Source of the DNA: Nordella sp. HKS 07
GTDB taxonomy: Bacteria > Pseudomonadota > Alphaproteobacteria > Rhizobiales > Aestuariivirgaceae
Direction of reading: 5' to 3'
Assembly (NCBI RefSeq): GCF_011046735.1
Contig: NZ_CP049258.1
Coordinates: 3,986,001 to 4,050,000, forward strand
DNA length: 64,000 nucleotides
Shown: positions 26,054-31,944 of the stretch, one piece after another
How the letters are laid out: each line of letters opens with the position of its first letter
How positions within the stretch are numbered: position 1 is the first letter of the stretch
Notes under the pieces: generated by a model
The model's input: only the letters and a program-made list of their open reading frames with translations
Told to the model about the DNA's origin: nothing
Databases searched by the model: none
Translations under genes and position numbers: made by a program

Positions 26054-27364
26054 TCACCCTTCGATCTTGATGGTCTCCGCGATATCTATACCAAAGCCGG
26101 ACAGGCCCACATAGTGACGCGTGCTCGAGGTGATGAGGCGTATCGAATGTACGTTGAGATCGCGCAGGATCTGCGCGCCGAGGCCGACATCGCGCCAGAC
26201 CTGCTCGCGGATGGCCGCGCTGCCCGTCTTCTCAGAGCCCATTTTCTGGCCCGCGGGCACGCCTGCGGTGCCCTCGCGCAGATAGACCAGCACGCCGCGA
26301 CCCTCGCGCTTGAAAATGTCATAGACCGAGTTGAGCACATGCGGGGCGCCGAAGATGTCGGCGACGATATCCTCGCGGTGCAACCTGACCGGGACGCTTT
26401 TGCCGCCGCTGATGTCACCGTAGACGAGAGCCAGATGCTGCACACTGTCGAAGGGCGTCGAATAGGCGAAGCCGCGCAGCTTGCCGATCGGGGTCGCGAT
26501 GTCGAACTGGCTTTCCTGATTGACGAGACGTTCGCGCGCCTGACGATAGGCGATGAGATCGGCGACCGAAATGATCTTGAGATTGTGCTCGCGCGCAAAG
26601 GCGCTGACCTGGGGCCCGCGCTTCACCGTGCCGTCGTCATTGACGAGCTCGCAGATGACGCCCGCCGGATGGAGTCCGGCCAGCCGCACGAGATCGACGG
26701 ACGCTTCGGTGTGGCCGGAGCGCATGAGCACGCCGCCCGACTTGGCGACGAGCGGGAAGATATGGCCGGGGCGCACGAAGTCGTTCGCCTGCACATTGCC
26801 ATTGGCGAGCGCATGCACGGTGGCGGCGCGTTCCTTGGCCGAGATGCCGGTGGTGAGGCCTTCCCGATAGTCGATCGAGACGGTGAAGGCGGTGCCGAGC
26901 GGGGCGTCGTTGAGCGCCACCATCGGGTCGAGCTTGAGGCGGCGGGCATCCTCGGGCGTGATCGGCGCGCAGACAATGCCGCAGCAATAGCGGATCATGA
27001 ATGCCATCTGCTCCGTCGTGATCTTGCAGGCGGCGGCGACGAGATCGCCTTCGTTTTCGCGATCATCATCGTCAACGACAACGACCATCTCACCGCGGGC
27101 GATGGCCGCGATGGCGTCCTCGACGCGGTCGAGTTCGGAGGCGGAGGCAGGGGCTGATGGGGTGGCGGTATCCATGGCGGCGGGTCCGGAGAAATCTTCT
27201 GGGCGAACGGCGTTATTGGTGAAGCTCGCGATCTTGAGGGCGAGGTCGAGGGAGGGCGACGCCCCGGCGATAAGTTGCGAGACGCGGCCCTGCGAAACGC
27301 CAAGGGCCTTGGCGAGGGCGGATTGCGAGGTGCCGGTCTTGTCCAGCCAATCAGGGAGCTTCAT
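26054..27364 (-). CDS. ribB: HTH domain fused to 3,4-dihydroxy-2-butanone-4-phosphate synthase and a degenerate RibA domain
   Basis: A 436-residue protein in three parts. Residues 1-57 are a Cro/C1-type helix-turn-helix (SQSALAKALGVSQGRVSQLI). Residues about 77-275 are the riboflavin enzyme RibB, with the acidic DDDDRENEGDLV loop (98-109) and GHTEASVDLVRLAG. Residues about 285-430 resemble GTP cyclohydrolase II, but the zinc cysteines are absent: the VRLHREDIVADIFG segment has none of the Cys expected there. So RibB should be active and RibA dead. An internal Met64 (MDTATPSAP) could give an HTH-less form but lacks a ribosome site. Confidence 0.9.
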   Translation of the reverse strand: MKLPDWLDKTGTSQSALAKALGVSQGRVSQLIAGASPSLDLALKIASFTNNAVRPEDFSGPAAMDTATPSAPASASELDRVEDAIAAIARGEMVVVVDDDDRENEGDLVAAACKITTEQMAFMIRYCCGIVCAPITPEDARRLKLDPMVALNDAPLGTAFTVSIDYREGLTTGISAKERAATVHALANGNVQANDFVRPGHIFPLVAKSGGVLMRSGHTEASVDLVRLAGLHPAGVICELVNDDGTVKRGPQVSAFAREHNLKIISVADLIAYRQARERLVNQESQFDIATPIGKLRGFAYSTPFDSVQHLALVYGDISGGKSVPVRLHREDIVADIFGAPHVLNSVYDIFKREGRGVLVYLREGTAGVPAGQKMGSEKTGSAAIREQVWRDVGLGAQILRDLNVHSIRLITSSTRHYVGLSGFGIDIAETIKIEG

Positions 27365-27502: not shown

Positions 27503-28222
27503 TCAGCGATCAGATGGAAATGGGCGCGCCTTGAGCCATAGGAACAAGGGAATTCGGGTCCAGCGAGACGGGTCCTGCGGAGCGGGCTCCTTGAGCGCGG
27601 TGATGGCGAAGCCCGCCTGTGTAAACGCTGCCATATAGTCCTGGAGCGGTTGCGACCAGCCGGCAAAGTGCATCTTGAGTCCGTTCTTTTCCTCGGCGCC
27701 TTCGAAGCGCTCGCGCCGGAAATAGCTGCCGGGCACGACGAAAGGGGCGTCAGGCTCCGGGCCGGAGAAATGCCCGCGATCGGCGAAGGGATGCACGATC
27801 GACACGATGAGAGATCCGGAGGGCTTCAGGACGCGCCGCATCTCCTTGACCGCCGCCGGCACGTCTTCGATATCCATGAGCACATTGAAGGCCAGGACGA
27901 TATCGAAACTTTCATCCTCGAAAGGCAGGGCCGCTGCTGCGGCCACTTCATAGTGATGGGCCGAATCCATCTCCTGTGCGGCTTCGACAAATCGCGCGAC
28001 CGGATCGGCGGCGGTGACGTGATAACCCAGCTCTTTGAGCAAGCGCGAGACCCGGCCCTCGCCGCAGCCGACATCGAGTGCCTCACCCTTGCCATTGCCG
28101 ACGAAATCCCGAAACGCGCTGCCATACTTCCAGAACGCGTCATGGTCGGGCGCACGCGCCCAGGCGATCCATTCCTCGGCGACCTCGGCCCAATGCGCCT
28201 GATCGGTTTTCTCAACTGTCAT
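27503..28222 (-). CDS. Class I SAM-dependent methyltransferase
   Basis: A 239-residue methyltransferase. Motif I is ALDVGCGEGRVSRLL (Asp50 to Gly56). VTAADPVARFVEAA carries the ribose-binding acid, FEDESFDIVLAFNVLMDIED is motif II, and VLKPSGSLIVSIVHPF follows. This is the UbiE/COQ5-like Methyltransf_11 group; the substrate is unknown. ATG 28222 (MTVEKTDQAH) is chosen over the open extension to 28408, which runs into the sodB terminator. It is monocistronic. Confidence 0.88.
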   Translation of the reverse strand: MTVEKTDQAHWAEVAEEWIAWARAPDHDAFWKYGSAFRDFVGNGKGEALDVGCGEGRVSRLLKELGYHVTAADPVARFVEAAQEMDSAHHYEVAAAAALPFEDESFDIVLAFNVLMDIEDVPAAVKEMRRVLKPSGSLIVSIVHPFADRGHFSGPEPDAPFVVPGSYFRRERFEGAEEKNGLKMHFAGWSQPLQDYMAAFTQAGFAITALKEPAPQDPSRWTRIPLFLWLKARPFPSDR

Positions 28223-28240
28223 CGCATGCCCCTTGGGACG

Positions 28241-28267
28241 AAAAAGCCCTCTCCTTGCGGAGAGGGC
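28241..28267 (-). terminator. Rho-independent terminator of sodB
   Basis: On the minus strand, GCCCTCTCC-GCAA-GGAGAGGGC forms a perfect 9-bp stem followed by TTTTTCG. It starts 26 bases after the sodB stop codon. Confidence 0.88.
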
Positions 28268-28293
28268 GTGACATTTCGTGTAACTTGGGAAGC

Positions 28294-29025
28294 TCAGGCT
28301 TCCGAGAACATCTGCTCGACATGCTCCCAATTGACGAGATTGTCGATGAAGGCTTCGAGGTACTTCGGCCGCGCGTTGCGATAGTCGATGTAGTAGCTGT
28401 GTTCCCACACATCGACGCCGAGGATCGGCTGGGCGCCATGCATCAGCGGGTTCTCGCCATTCGGCGTCTTCTGGATTTCGAGCTTGCCGTTTTTCACCGC
28501 GATCCAGGCCCAGCCGGAGCCGAACTGCGTGGTGCCGGCATTGATGAAATCGGCGCGCATCTTGTCATACCCGCCGAGATCCGAATCGATCGCCTTCTGC
28601 AGCTTGGCAGGCAGCTTCTTGCCGCCGCCGTCTTTCTTCATCCACTGCCAGAAATGCAGGTGATTGTAGTGCTGGCCGACATTGTTGATGAGGCCCTGGT
28701 TCTTCTCCTTATAGGCGGCCTTGACGATCTTGGTCAGCGACTGGCCGGCGAGGGGAGAGTCCTTGAGCAGGTTGTTGCCGTTCGTCACATAAGCCTGATG
28801 ATGCTTGTCGTGATGATATTCCAGCGTTTCCTTCGACATGTAGGGCTGAAGCGCGTCATAGGCATAAGGCAGAGCGGGAAGTTCAAGGGCCATGGTGTCA
28901 TCTCCTTTTTTGTGAGACGTTTCCGCAGAATTTGCGAAAACTGTCCCGGCTCCTGGCAACGAAGAAGCGCCTGCCGCGATGAGAAACGGGGCGGCAAGCG
29001 TTTGAAACTGGCGACGGGTAATCAA
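28294..29025 (-). CDS. sodB: Superoxide dismutase (Fe/Mn family) with an in-frame Tat signal extension
   Basis: The core from ATG 28893 is a full 199-residue SOD. Metal ligands are His27 (EYHHDKHHQAYV), His78 (NHLHFW), Asp161 and His165 (VDVWEHSYYIDY). Gln74 aligns with the iron-type glutamine. AGGAG precedes this ATG. In the same frame, a TTG at 29025 adds 44 residues: ITRRQFQTLAAPFLIAAG and a VFA-like cleavage site, a twin-arginine signal. GAGGAG lies exactly six bases before that TTG. Both starts look usable, so one gene may make cytoplasmic and exported enzyme. A 9-bp-stem terminator follows. Confidence 0.88.
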   Translation of the reverse strand: MITRRQFQTLAAPFLIAAGASSLPGAGTVFANSAETSHKKGDDTMALELPALPYAYDALQPYMSKETLEYHHDKHHQAYVTNGNNLLKDSPLAGQSLTKIVKAAYKEKNQGLINNVGQHYNHLHFWQWMKKDGGGKKLPAKLQKAIDSDLGGYDKMRADFINAGTTQFGSGWAWIAVKNGKLEIQKTPNGENPLMHGAQPILGVDVWEHSYYIDYRNARPKYLEAFIDNLVNWEHVEQMFSEA

Positions 29026-29091
29026 GCAGATCTCCTCGACCTCATCAAAACCCAACACTGAAATAGGCGTTTGGGTTCCGTCTGTCAAAGA

Positions 29092-30192
29092 TCAAGCCTC
29101 GGCTCTCAGCCACCGCAAAAGCGACGAGTCATCGCCGGATTCGACCGCTTCCGCCAGCCGGCGCCCGACCGCGGCGCCGAATTTGTAGCCATGACCGGAA
29201 CAGGCCGAGACGATCAAAGCCTTGCCTCTGCGATACGACAGGAATTTGTCATCGGCGGTGAAGGTGTAGGCACAGGTCCGTACACGCGCCACTGCATATT
29301 CGCGAATGCGCGCCAGAGGCGGAGAGAGCAGGTCGCGCAAGCGTTCGCCTTCGCCGTGGCTCTCCACCCGGTCGGCATCGGGATCGCACGCCGGACGCTT
29401 GACCAGGCTCGCTCCGGCCTTGAGCCCGGTGCCGGCGACAGGTGGCAGCATATAGGCACCGGTCTCACCGCCGATATCCAGGATGGCCGGCGCGTCCGCC
29501 CACGCACTTGCGAGATCATCGGGAGGCGTCAGATAGGCGACGAACGTCCGGTATAGCGTGAGATGCCGGCTGAGCTCCGGCACCAGTTGCAGGACCCAGG
29601 CGCCGGCCGTGACGACGATCTGGTCGGCCGCAATCAGGTCGCCATCGCCCAAGCCGACCGTCCCTTTGTCGGCGTCGATCGCGTCGACACGGCTGTTAAG
29701 CCGCAGCGTCGCGCCATTATCCGTCAGCCAGCGGGCCAGATCGGACGCGATGCGCTGACAGAGAAGCGCACCGCCGGCTCTGGTGAAATAGGCGTAGCGG
29801 ATGGTGGCCGGATCGAGAAAGGGATAGCGCCGGGCCGCTTCCTTCGGCTCGTAGAGCTCATAGGCCTCGCCCATCCGGTCATAACCCAGACGGAAATTCT
29901 CGCCGTCATCGCCTTCGAATTGCGACATGGCCAGCACGCCGCGATGCGACAAATGCGAGCGGCCGAGATCGCGCCACAACTCGTCCCAGGCGGTGAAGGC
30001 TTCCGAGATGGTGCGCGCATAGCCGTCGGCCGAGCCAAAGCCGCGTCTGATCATGCGGTGTTCATCGCCCGAGGCGGCCAGCGGATTGGGGATGCTGCCT
30101 TGTTCGACGAGCGTCACCTGGTGGCCGCGCTTGGTCAGCGCCCACGCGGCGGCAAGACCGGCTATGCCGCCGCCCGCAATGCAGACCTTCAT
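29092..30192 (-). CDS. FAD-dependent amine/amino-acid oxidase (DAO family, SolA-like)
   Basis: A 366-residue flavoprotein. The N-terminal dinucleotide site is [18 protein letters not shown] (Gly7-Gly12) with the ribose acid in VTLVEQG. The second FAD-contacting strand IVVTAGAW and the C-terminal SACSGHGYKFGAAVGRRLAE fit the monomeric sarcosine oxidase / N-methyltryptophan oxidase group, where a cysteine near this position often anchors the flavin. The substrate is probably a secondary amine or N-methyl amino acid, but this is untested. ATGA overlap with the GNAT gene makes it the last gene of an operon. Confidence 0.82.
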   Translation of the reverse strand: MKVCIAGGGIAGLAAAWALTKRGHQVTLVEQGSIPNPLAASGDEHRMIRRGFGSADGYARTISEAFTAWDELWRDLGRSHLSHRGVLAMSQFEGDDGENFRLGYDRMGEAYELYEPKEAARRYPFLDPATIRYAYFTRAGGALLCQRIASDLARWLTDNGATLRLNSRVDAIDADKGTVGLGDGDLIAADQIVVTAGAWVLQLVPELSRHLTLYRTFVAYLTPPDDLASAWADAPAILDIGGETGAYMLPPVAGTGLKAGASLVKRPACDPDADRVESHGEGERLRDLLSPPLARIREYAVARVRTCAYTFTADDKFLSYRRGKALIVSACSGHGYKFGAAVGRRLAEAVESGDDSSLLRWLRAEA

Positions 30193-30653
30193 ACCACCTG
30201 CTTTTCCATGAAGACGGAAAAGGGGTCGTCAGTGGGATAGTCGGCATAGGGTCCGCAAAGCGTGAATCCGCACTTGGCGAAAAGACCGAGTGCTTCCGGC
30301 TGCAGCGTGCCGGTTTCAAGTTTCATCGCCTTGAGCCCGTGCTCGCGCGCATTCTCCTCGAGCCTGGCGAGGATCAGCTTCGACAATTTGAGCCCGCGCG
30401 CCTCGGGCCTTACATAGATGCGCTTGATCTCGCCATAAGCGTGGTCGCGATGCCAGAGCGCGCCGCAGCCCAGCGCTTCGCCGTTGCGCCGGGCCACGAA
30501 AAAATGGATATCCGGCGCGGCAAGCGTCTCGATATCGACGAGATGATTGCTTTCGGCCGGATAGAGCCGGTGGAACATGTCATCGAGATCGCGGATGAGT
30601 TGCGTCACATCCGCTATGCGCGGGTCCTCACGCCGGATCTCGATCTCGCTCAT
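30189..30653 (-). CDS. GNAT-family N-acetyltransferase
   Basis: A 154-residue acetyltransferase. [18 protein letters not shown] is strand 2-4, [21 protein letters not shown] is the acetyl-CoA pyrophosphate loop (consensus RxxGxG is altered to EARGLKLS), and [14 protein letters not shown] closes the fold. The acceptor is unknown. ATGA overlaps tie it to the glutaryl-CoA dehydrogenase upstream and the FAD oxidase downstream, so all three are cotranscribed. Confidence 0.85.
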
Positions 30654-31864
30654 GGCTGGAAGGCCTGCAGTCCCGTCTGCGCGCGTCCGAGGATCAGCGC
30701 ATGCACATCATGCGTGCCTTCATAGGTGTTGACGGTCTCGAGATTGACCATGTGACGGATGACGTGGAATTCGTCCGATATGCCGTTGCCGCCATGCATG
30801 TCGCGGGCGTCACGCGCGATGGCGAGCGCCTTGCCGCAGTTGTTGCGCTTCATGAGCGAGATGGCGGGCGGCGCCGCGTTGCCGCGCTCGAGTGCGCGAC
30901 CCAGAGCAAGCGCCCCCTGCAGCCCGAGCGCGATCTCGGTCTGCATGTCGGCGAGCTTCTTCTGCACCAGCTGATTGGCGGCGAGCGGCCGGCCGAACTG
31001 CTTGCGGTCCAGCGTATACTGGCGTGCCCGGTGCCAGCAGTCTTCCGCCGCACCCATGGCGCCCCAGGCGATGCCGTAGCGCGCCTTGTTGAGACAGCCG
31101 AACGGGCCGGACAGGCCGCGCGCATTCGGGAAGATGTTCTCTTCGGGGATTTCGACATTGTCGAGAACGATCTCGCCGGTCACGGAGGCGCGCAACGACA
31201 CCTTGCCTTCGATCGTGGGCGTGGAGAAGCCTTTCGTGCCGCGCTCGACGAGGAAGCCGTGAATGCCTTCATCCTCGAGCTTGCCCCACACAACCGCCAC
31301 ATCGGCGATCGGCGAATTGGTGATCCACATTTTCGTGCCGTTGAGCACGAAACCGCCATTGACGCGCTTGGCCCTGGTCTTCATGCCGCCGGGATCCGAG
31401 CCCGCATCGGGCTCGGTCAGGCCGAAGCAGCCGACCCATTCGCCGGTGGCAAGCTTGGGCAGGTACTTCTTGCGCTGGGCTTCCGATCCGTAAGTTTCGA
31501 TCGGGTGCATGACGAGCGAATTCTGCACGCTCATCGCCGAGCGGTAGCCCGAATCGACGCGCTCCACTTCGCGTGCCACGAGGCCGTAGGCGACATAGCC
31601 GAGGCCCGATCCGCCATAGGCTTCCGAATTCATCATGCCGAGGAAGCCGACTTCGCCGAGCTCATTCATGATTTCGCGATCGAAGCGTTCCTCGCGGAAA
31701 GCCTTCTGGACGCGCGGCAGGAGCTTGTCGGCGCAAAAGGCGCGCGCAGTGTCGCGGATCATGCGCTCGTCTTCGTTCAGCTGGCTTTCGAGATCGAGTG
31801 GATCTTCCCAGTTGAACTCGGCAAGCGAGGTAGGGCCATGGGCTTTGCGGGCGGCTTGGGTCAT
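30650..31864 (-). CDS. gcdH: Glutaryl-CoA dehydrogenase
   Basis: A 404-residue acyl-CoA dehydrogenase that oxidises and decarboxylates glutaryl-CoA to crotonyl-CoA in lysine/tryptophan catabolism. [20 protein letters not shown] and [16 protein letters not shown] bind FAD and substrate. [18 protein letters not shown] near the C-terminus contains the catalytic glutamate (about Glu382) in the context specific to glutaryl-CoA dehydrogenases. ATG 31864 ([10 protein letters not shown]) is chosen. It leads an operon with a GNAT and an amine oxidase. Confidence 0.93.
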
Positions 31865-31944
31865 GTGGAACTTTTCATCGCTTCGAAAGTTGCTACCGAG
31901 CACGTTAACAACGCCAATCGCCCCAAAATGTCAAATCCTGCCCA

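Follow-up and report, generated by a model that had tools for sequence, protein, structure and literature searches.

Can one superoxide dismutase (SOD) gene serve two cell compartments through the choice of its translation start? The question is raised by a SOD gene on the minus strand of the window (the whole 64,000-nucleotide stretch of DNA that was analysed), which has two possible starts, ATG 28893 (199 aa) and TTG 29025 (243 aa), lying in the same frame (ATG at 28893-28891 and TTG at 29025-29023) with 132 bases, i.e., 44 codons, and no stop between them. Weighing the results presented below, we consider it fairly probable that this single gene gives two proteins via its two starts, namely a cytosolic SOD and a Tat-exported SOD. 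Among the explanations compared, we favour this two-product reading, which for the proteins themselves is a prediction from sequence.

The added stretch (LITRRQFQTLAAPFLIAAGASSLPGAGTVFANSAETSHKKGDDT, 44 codons) lies directly before the MALELP of the short form, and the KKG within the long form is the coding reading of the inner ribosome site AAGGAG. Both Fe/Mn SOD domains were found above their cut-offs, with 92.5 bits for PF00081 (Sod_Fe_N, cut-off 27 bits) and 120.1 bits for PF02777 (Sod_Fe_C, cut-off 20.9 bits). The original prediction had given ATG 28893 a ribosome site of its own, and AAGGAG is indeed seen eight bases upstream; the other start that it described, a TTG placed 44 codons upstream in the same frame with GAGGAG at six bases, was correct in every coordinate (Table 1). 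The frame of the window remains open 5′ of TTG 29025 as far as another TTG at 29088. In two relatives of the same genus (G001 and G003, loci L003 and L004), a TGA touches the TTG start directly upstream, so that this TTG is the first possible ATG/GTG/TTG start there. Note that the abutting TGA is an arrangement that could allow re-initiation. A scan of positions 28150-30400 for sigma-70-like promoters returned no site (0.7 expected from shuffles), and the possible terminator past the SOD stop is not above chance, since 2 overlapping sites were found against 1.6 from shuffles.

Table 1. Features of the SOD locus and its flanking genes, in window positions.
Feature	Position	Strand	Basis or placement
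Acyl-CoA dehydrogenase	30650-31903	-	upstream of SOD
GNAT acetyltransferase	30189-30653	-	upstream of SOD
DAO-family oxidase	29092-30192	-	upstream of SOD
Outer ribosome site GAGGAG	29032-29037	-	six-base spacer to TTG; pairing energy -8.7 kcal/mol
Upstream start codon TTG	29023-29025	-	sequence read; TTG in 5/5 genus genomes
SOD long form, TTG start, 243 aa	28294-29025	-	open frame; conserved over its length in 5/5 genus genomes
Twin arginine codons, RR of TRRQF	29011-29016	-	translation; RR in 5/5 genus genomes
Hydrophobic region TLAAPFLIAAGASSL	28957-29001	-	best 15-residue mean hydropathy 1.56
VFA, possible signal peptidase site	28933-28941	-	read from translation; differs between two clades
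Inner ribosome site AAGGAG	28902-28907	-	eight bases before ATG; 22 bases identical in 5/5 genus genomes; pairing -9.4 kcal/mol
SOD short (cytosolic) form, ATG start, 199 aa, Fe/Mn superoxide dismutase	28294-28893	-	PF00081 + PF02777; start common to family relatives
Stem-loop with T tail past SOD stop, possible terminator	28246-28267	-	2 overlapping sites vs 1.6 expected from shuffles
Methyltransferase	27503-28222		downstream of SOD
DHBP synthase/GTP cyclohydrolase II	26054-27364	-	downstream of SOD

The 44 extra codons can be read as a plausible Tat signal. The comparison used five genomes of the genus, including that of the window, which fall into two clades (the window, G001 and G003 in one; G002 and G004 in the other). 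The twin-arginine motif TRRQF, which had been claimed to follow the TTG, is read in the translation, and all five genomes carry RR within an S/T-R-R-x-F motif (TRRQF or TRRRF) close to the N-terminus, the Tat consensus used for comparison being that of PMC8193680. The best 15-residue core has a mean hydropathy of 1.56 in the window and of 1.75, 1.80, 1.38 and 1.04 in the relatives (range 1.04-1.80), the least hydrophobic core being that of G004. The VFA-type cleavage site that had also been described is there in the window's extension, but it is present in one clade only and the site differs in the other, so that this part of the prediction stands for the window and not for both clades. No Tat-signal profile of Pfam or NCBIfam was matched by the full protein, nor by the extension alone in the four genomes for which it was searched; short Tat-signal profiles are often missed by profile searches. 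In addition, the genome has tatC next to tatA- and tatB-like genes. Taken from these features, the long form is predicted to depend on Tat, to be cleaved and to be exported.

The extension is maintained throughout the genus. Indeed, each of the five genomes has one SOD match, either full-length or from residue 2, and none of them lacks the TTG, T-R-R, F, the hydrophobic stretch or the frame, the sole length change in the extension being exactly one whole codon between the two clades. The inner site and its ATG are found in 5/5 genomes, and in 4/5 a good ribosome site precedes the TTG. This alignment of upstream regions had been set as a test by the original prediction, for which loss of RR or of the frame in close relatives was to count as refutation, and no such loss was found in these five genomes. 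The Ka/Ks ratios of the extension, calculated without its first codon and KKGDDT, range from 0.29 to 0.80 over ten pairs, and those of the core from 0.04 to 0.12. The pN/pS of the extension is 0.49 against a shuffle mean of 0.95, with 45 of 2000 column shuffles at or below this value (stop-free shuffles only, ~12% of all, using three pairs and leaving out gap columns). These values, from a small set of five genomes, suggest a moderate amino-acid constraint on the extension, and a loose one is to be expected since signal peptides usually evolve fast. Judged from the genus-wide conservation, the whole-codon change and the pN/pS relative to shuffles, the two-start arrangement exceeds chance. A run of 22 bases spanning the inner site and ATG does not vary among the five genomes, but this invariance alone is only suggestive because 10 of the 194 six-codon windows of the SOD core are likewise invariant.

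The two initiation sites differ in their predicted strength. Pairing with the 16S end reaches -9.4 kcal/mol at the inner site in all five genomes, and at the outer site -8.7 (window), -7.4 (G001), -7.4 (G003), -8.7 (G002) and -3.0 kcal/mol (G004), the last being a poor ribosome site before the TTG. The outer start region also folds tighter in all five genomes (-16.3 to -21.0 vs -8.9 to -13.3 for the inner one). Since the inner site pairs better and the outer region folds tighter, the cytosolic form is predicted to predominate over an exported one of lesser amount; translation would start at TTG 29025 as well, with more short than long product. The same pairing and folding, together with the poor outer site in G004, the lack of a Tat profile match and the fact that TTG is a weak start codon, would also fit a gene that makes the short form alone in useful amount, its upstream part being an untranslated or barely translated leader that resembles a Tat signal by chance. 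We find this explanation unlikely, as the frame, the TTG and RR are kept in 5/5 genomes, the indel is exactly one codon and pN/pS lies below most shuffles (only 45/2000 as low).

If both forms are made, the long one might still not be released by Tat, and could instead stay attached to the inner membrane, on its cytoplasmic or its periplasmic side, be routed through Sec or be degraded. The cleavage site that is not common to both clades fits such a fate, as do the membrane-anchored forms among cyanobacterial MnSODs (in the available part of PMC8193680) and the export of a related SodA through SecA without any signal (in that of PMC5963308). However, the T-R-R-x-F kept in all five genomes fits Tat better than Sec (according to the consensus in PMC8193680) and tatABC is present, which makes this outcome distinctly improbable in our view. 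It would be more surprising by far if the long form alone were made and exported, the inner start being a relic: conservation of the long frame would agree with this, but all five genomes have the same inner ribosome site and ATG, and with a sole Fe/Mn SOD found, the cytosol would have none of that kind. Under the two-product reading, which we retain, the ancestral inner ATG would give an ordinary 199-residue cytosolic Fe/Mn-family SOD, and the upstream TTG, gained in the ancestor of the genus, would add a twin-arginine signal of 44-45 residues; the long form would acquire both its fold and its metal before leaving the cytoplasm through TatABC, and cleavage would then yield a periplasmic SOD, which would thereby be supplied in an organism where no SodC was found.

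Outside the genus, this arrangement appears rare. We compared 105 SOD loci (25 from sampled genomes and the best 80 of 580 from a contig search), of which a pattern placed 96 (94 distinct), the 9 that it missed (7 distinct) being judged by eye. An in-frame upstream start followed within 15 residues by RR occurs in 7 of the 94 distinct placed loci, and in none of these seven do a strong ribosome site and a hydrophobic core occur together (the best 80 of 580 included in both counts). Only L014 among the seven has a strong site, and what follows it is hydrophilic, while only L068 exceeds a mean hydropathy of 1, without a strong site. The 9 loci read by eye contain no Tat-like upstream stretch. 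N-terminal matches reaching into the extension at several loci (e.g., Hoeflea, Devosia and Rhizobium) were also read out, and they are not Tat signals. Within the family, the short-form ATG with GGAG upstream starts the SOD in 13 of the 13 loci printed (of 15 outside the genus), the protein reads of the remaining two (L010 and L021) contain no Tat signal, and the extension is found in none of the 15. This distribution indicates that the inner ATG is the older start and that the upstream TTG is newer and was probably gained in the genus.

No donor for the signal was found, as the extension searched in its own genome gave, besides itself, one match that is not meaningful (E 2.5), and a search with it alone in 397 genomes of the order yielded matches in 2, which belong to the same genus; the remaining three members of the genus do not appear among these matches and are thus presumably absent from this sample. 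The gene neighborhood also differs between the genus and the family. The same dehydrogenase lies upstream of the SOD in 8 of the 15 family loci outside the genus (in 2 of the 8 with the acetyltransferase), whereas the oxidase is near the SOD in none of the 15, within about 1.5 kb of flank. In the four genus relatives the oxidase is upstream of the SOD, whole in three and partial in G004. As the oxidase stands beside the SOD in the genus and not at the family loci, the putative signal sits in an oxidase-SOD stretch that was re-made in the genus. On the other side of the SOD, the DHBP synthase/GTP cyclohydrolase II carries an N-terminal helix-turn-helix domain (HTH_3, E 8.8e-9).

It should be noted that the assembly of G004 is 87% complete and consists of about 600 contigs. 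Its partial oxidase (locus L006, about 930-1630, in the SOD orientation) matches the window's oxidase at residues 219-366, and no stop separates its frame from that of the SOD, with 235 open codons before the ATG; it may be either a decaying gene or an assembly fault. Altogether, we tentatively propose, at a little below even chances, that in a single genus the 5′ leader of a gene for a cytosolic SOD has recently given rise to a Tat signal, the old ribosome site still working inside the new coding sequence and one gene serving two compartments by start choice.

A shared enzyme would be sensible in this organism, since one Fe/Mn SOD was found in the genome (a single contig of 7.18 Mb, of which the window covers positions 3986001-4050000) and no SodC, which is found in none of the five genus genomes. 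Ni-SOD gave no match in these five genomes either, the controls being equally without any match. However, SodC was detected in only 4 of the 60 sampled family genomes, so the genus does not stand out in needing a periplasmic SOD. As a side observation, eight family genomes (G005, G011, G013, G016, G022, G024, G029 and G034), some of them incomplete, have no match to this SOD, and only two of these eight, G005 and G034, have SodC. Concerning the metal, the Gln in GQHYNH, which we take to mark Fe-type SODs, aligns with a Gln in the best solved match (no metal is named in its entry), and enzymes of both metals (Fe and Mn) are among the matches. The iron of the original prediction relies on this one residue and is a tentative assignment.

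If our reading is true, an Fe/Mn SOD would be split between cytosol and periplasm by an alternative translation start, offering a simple example from bacteria, open to dissection codon by codon, of start choice placing the same enzyme in two compartments. It would also show clearly that a signal peptide can arise with no duplication of the gene, for which living relatives display the state before the signal arose, and would point to a way in which the envelope is protected in a bacterium that has one SOD and lacks SodC. In addition, it would warn that annotation with one start per gene hides such cases.

The export of SodA in Rhizobium leguminosarum was reportedly the work of Krehenbrink, Edwards and Downie in 2011. 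In the parts of PMC5963308 and PMC8226930 at hand, this SodA reaches the periplasm via the Sec machinery without a signal sequence. Both are SODs of the same order, reaching the periplasm there and predicted to do so here, but in our case it is an alternative start that supplies a Tat-like signal. If the SOD of the window can be exported as SodA is, its Tat form would be a second route. According to the available part of PMC6679007, a signal-less SodB was likewise found in periplasmic fractions of Acinetobacter. In PMC2654757, considered as a source for a Tat-exported SodB, the available part contains no such precedent, and among the titles and abstract beginnings listed from the open-licence literature we found no paper announcing an Fe/Mn SOD that owes a Tat signal to an alternative start.

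Closer parallels come from cyanobacteria and from genes with alternative starts, as far as the accessible parts of the sources describe them. A Tat signal is predicted on the MnSOD SodA2.1 of Chroococcidiopsis sp. CCMEE 029, and processing of one MnSOD in Anabaena sp. PCC 7120 was reported to give a soluble enzyme in the cytosol and in the periplasm/lumen (PMC8193680). Our candidate resembles the former as an Fe/Mn-family SOD with a predicted Tat signal, and the latter as one SOD on both sides of the membrane (reported there, proposed here). In contrast, the Chroococcidiopsis strain has three SOD genes where one Fe/Mn SOD was found here, and Anabaena reaches two locations by protein processing, a second translation start being mentioned for neither. 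In SpeA of E. coli (PMC13245402) and in PagC/OmpX and others of Salmonella (PMC11005335), a second in-frame start drops the N-terminal targeting sequence, and different locations were proposed. These starts have ribosome-profiling or N-terminal peptide evidence, whereas those of our SOD are predicted from the sequence. As in our case, an in-frame second start leads there to forms with and without an N-terminal targeting sequence, but these proteins are neither SODs nor Tat substrates. Such alternative-start targeting pairs are therefore already known, and what would set the present case apart from them is the combination of an Fe/Mn SOD, a Tat-like signal and two starts in one gene.
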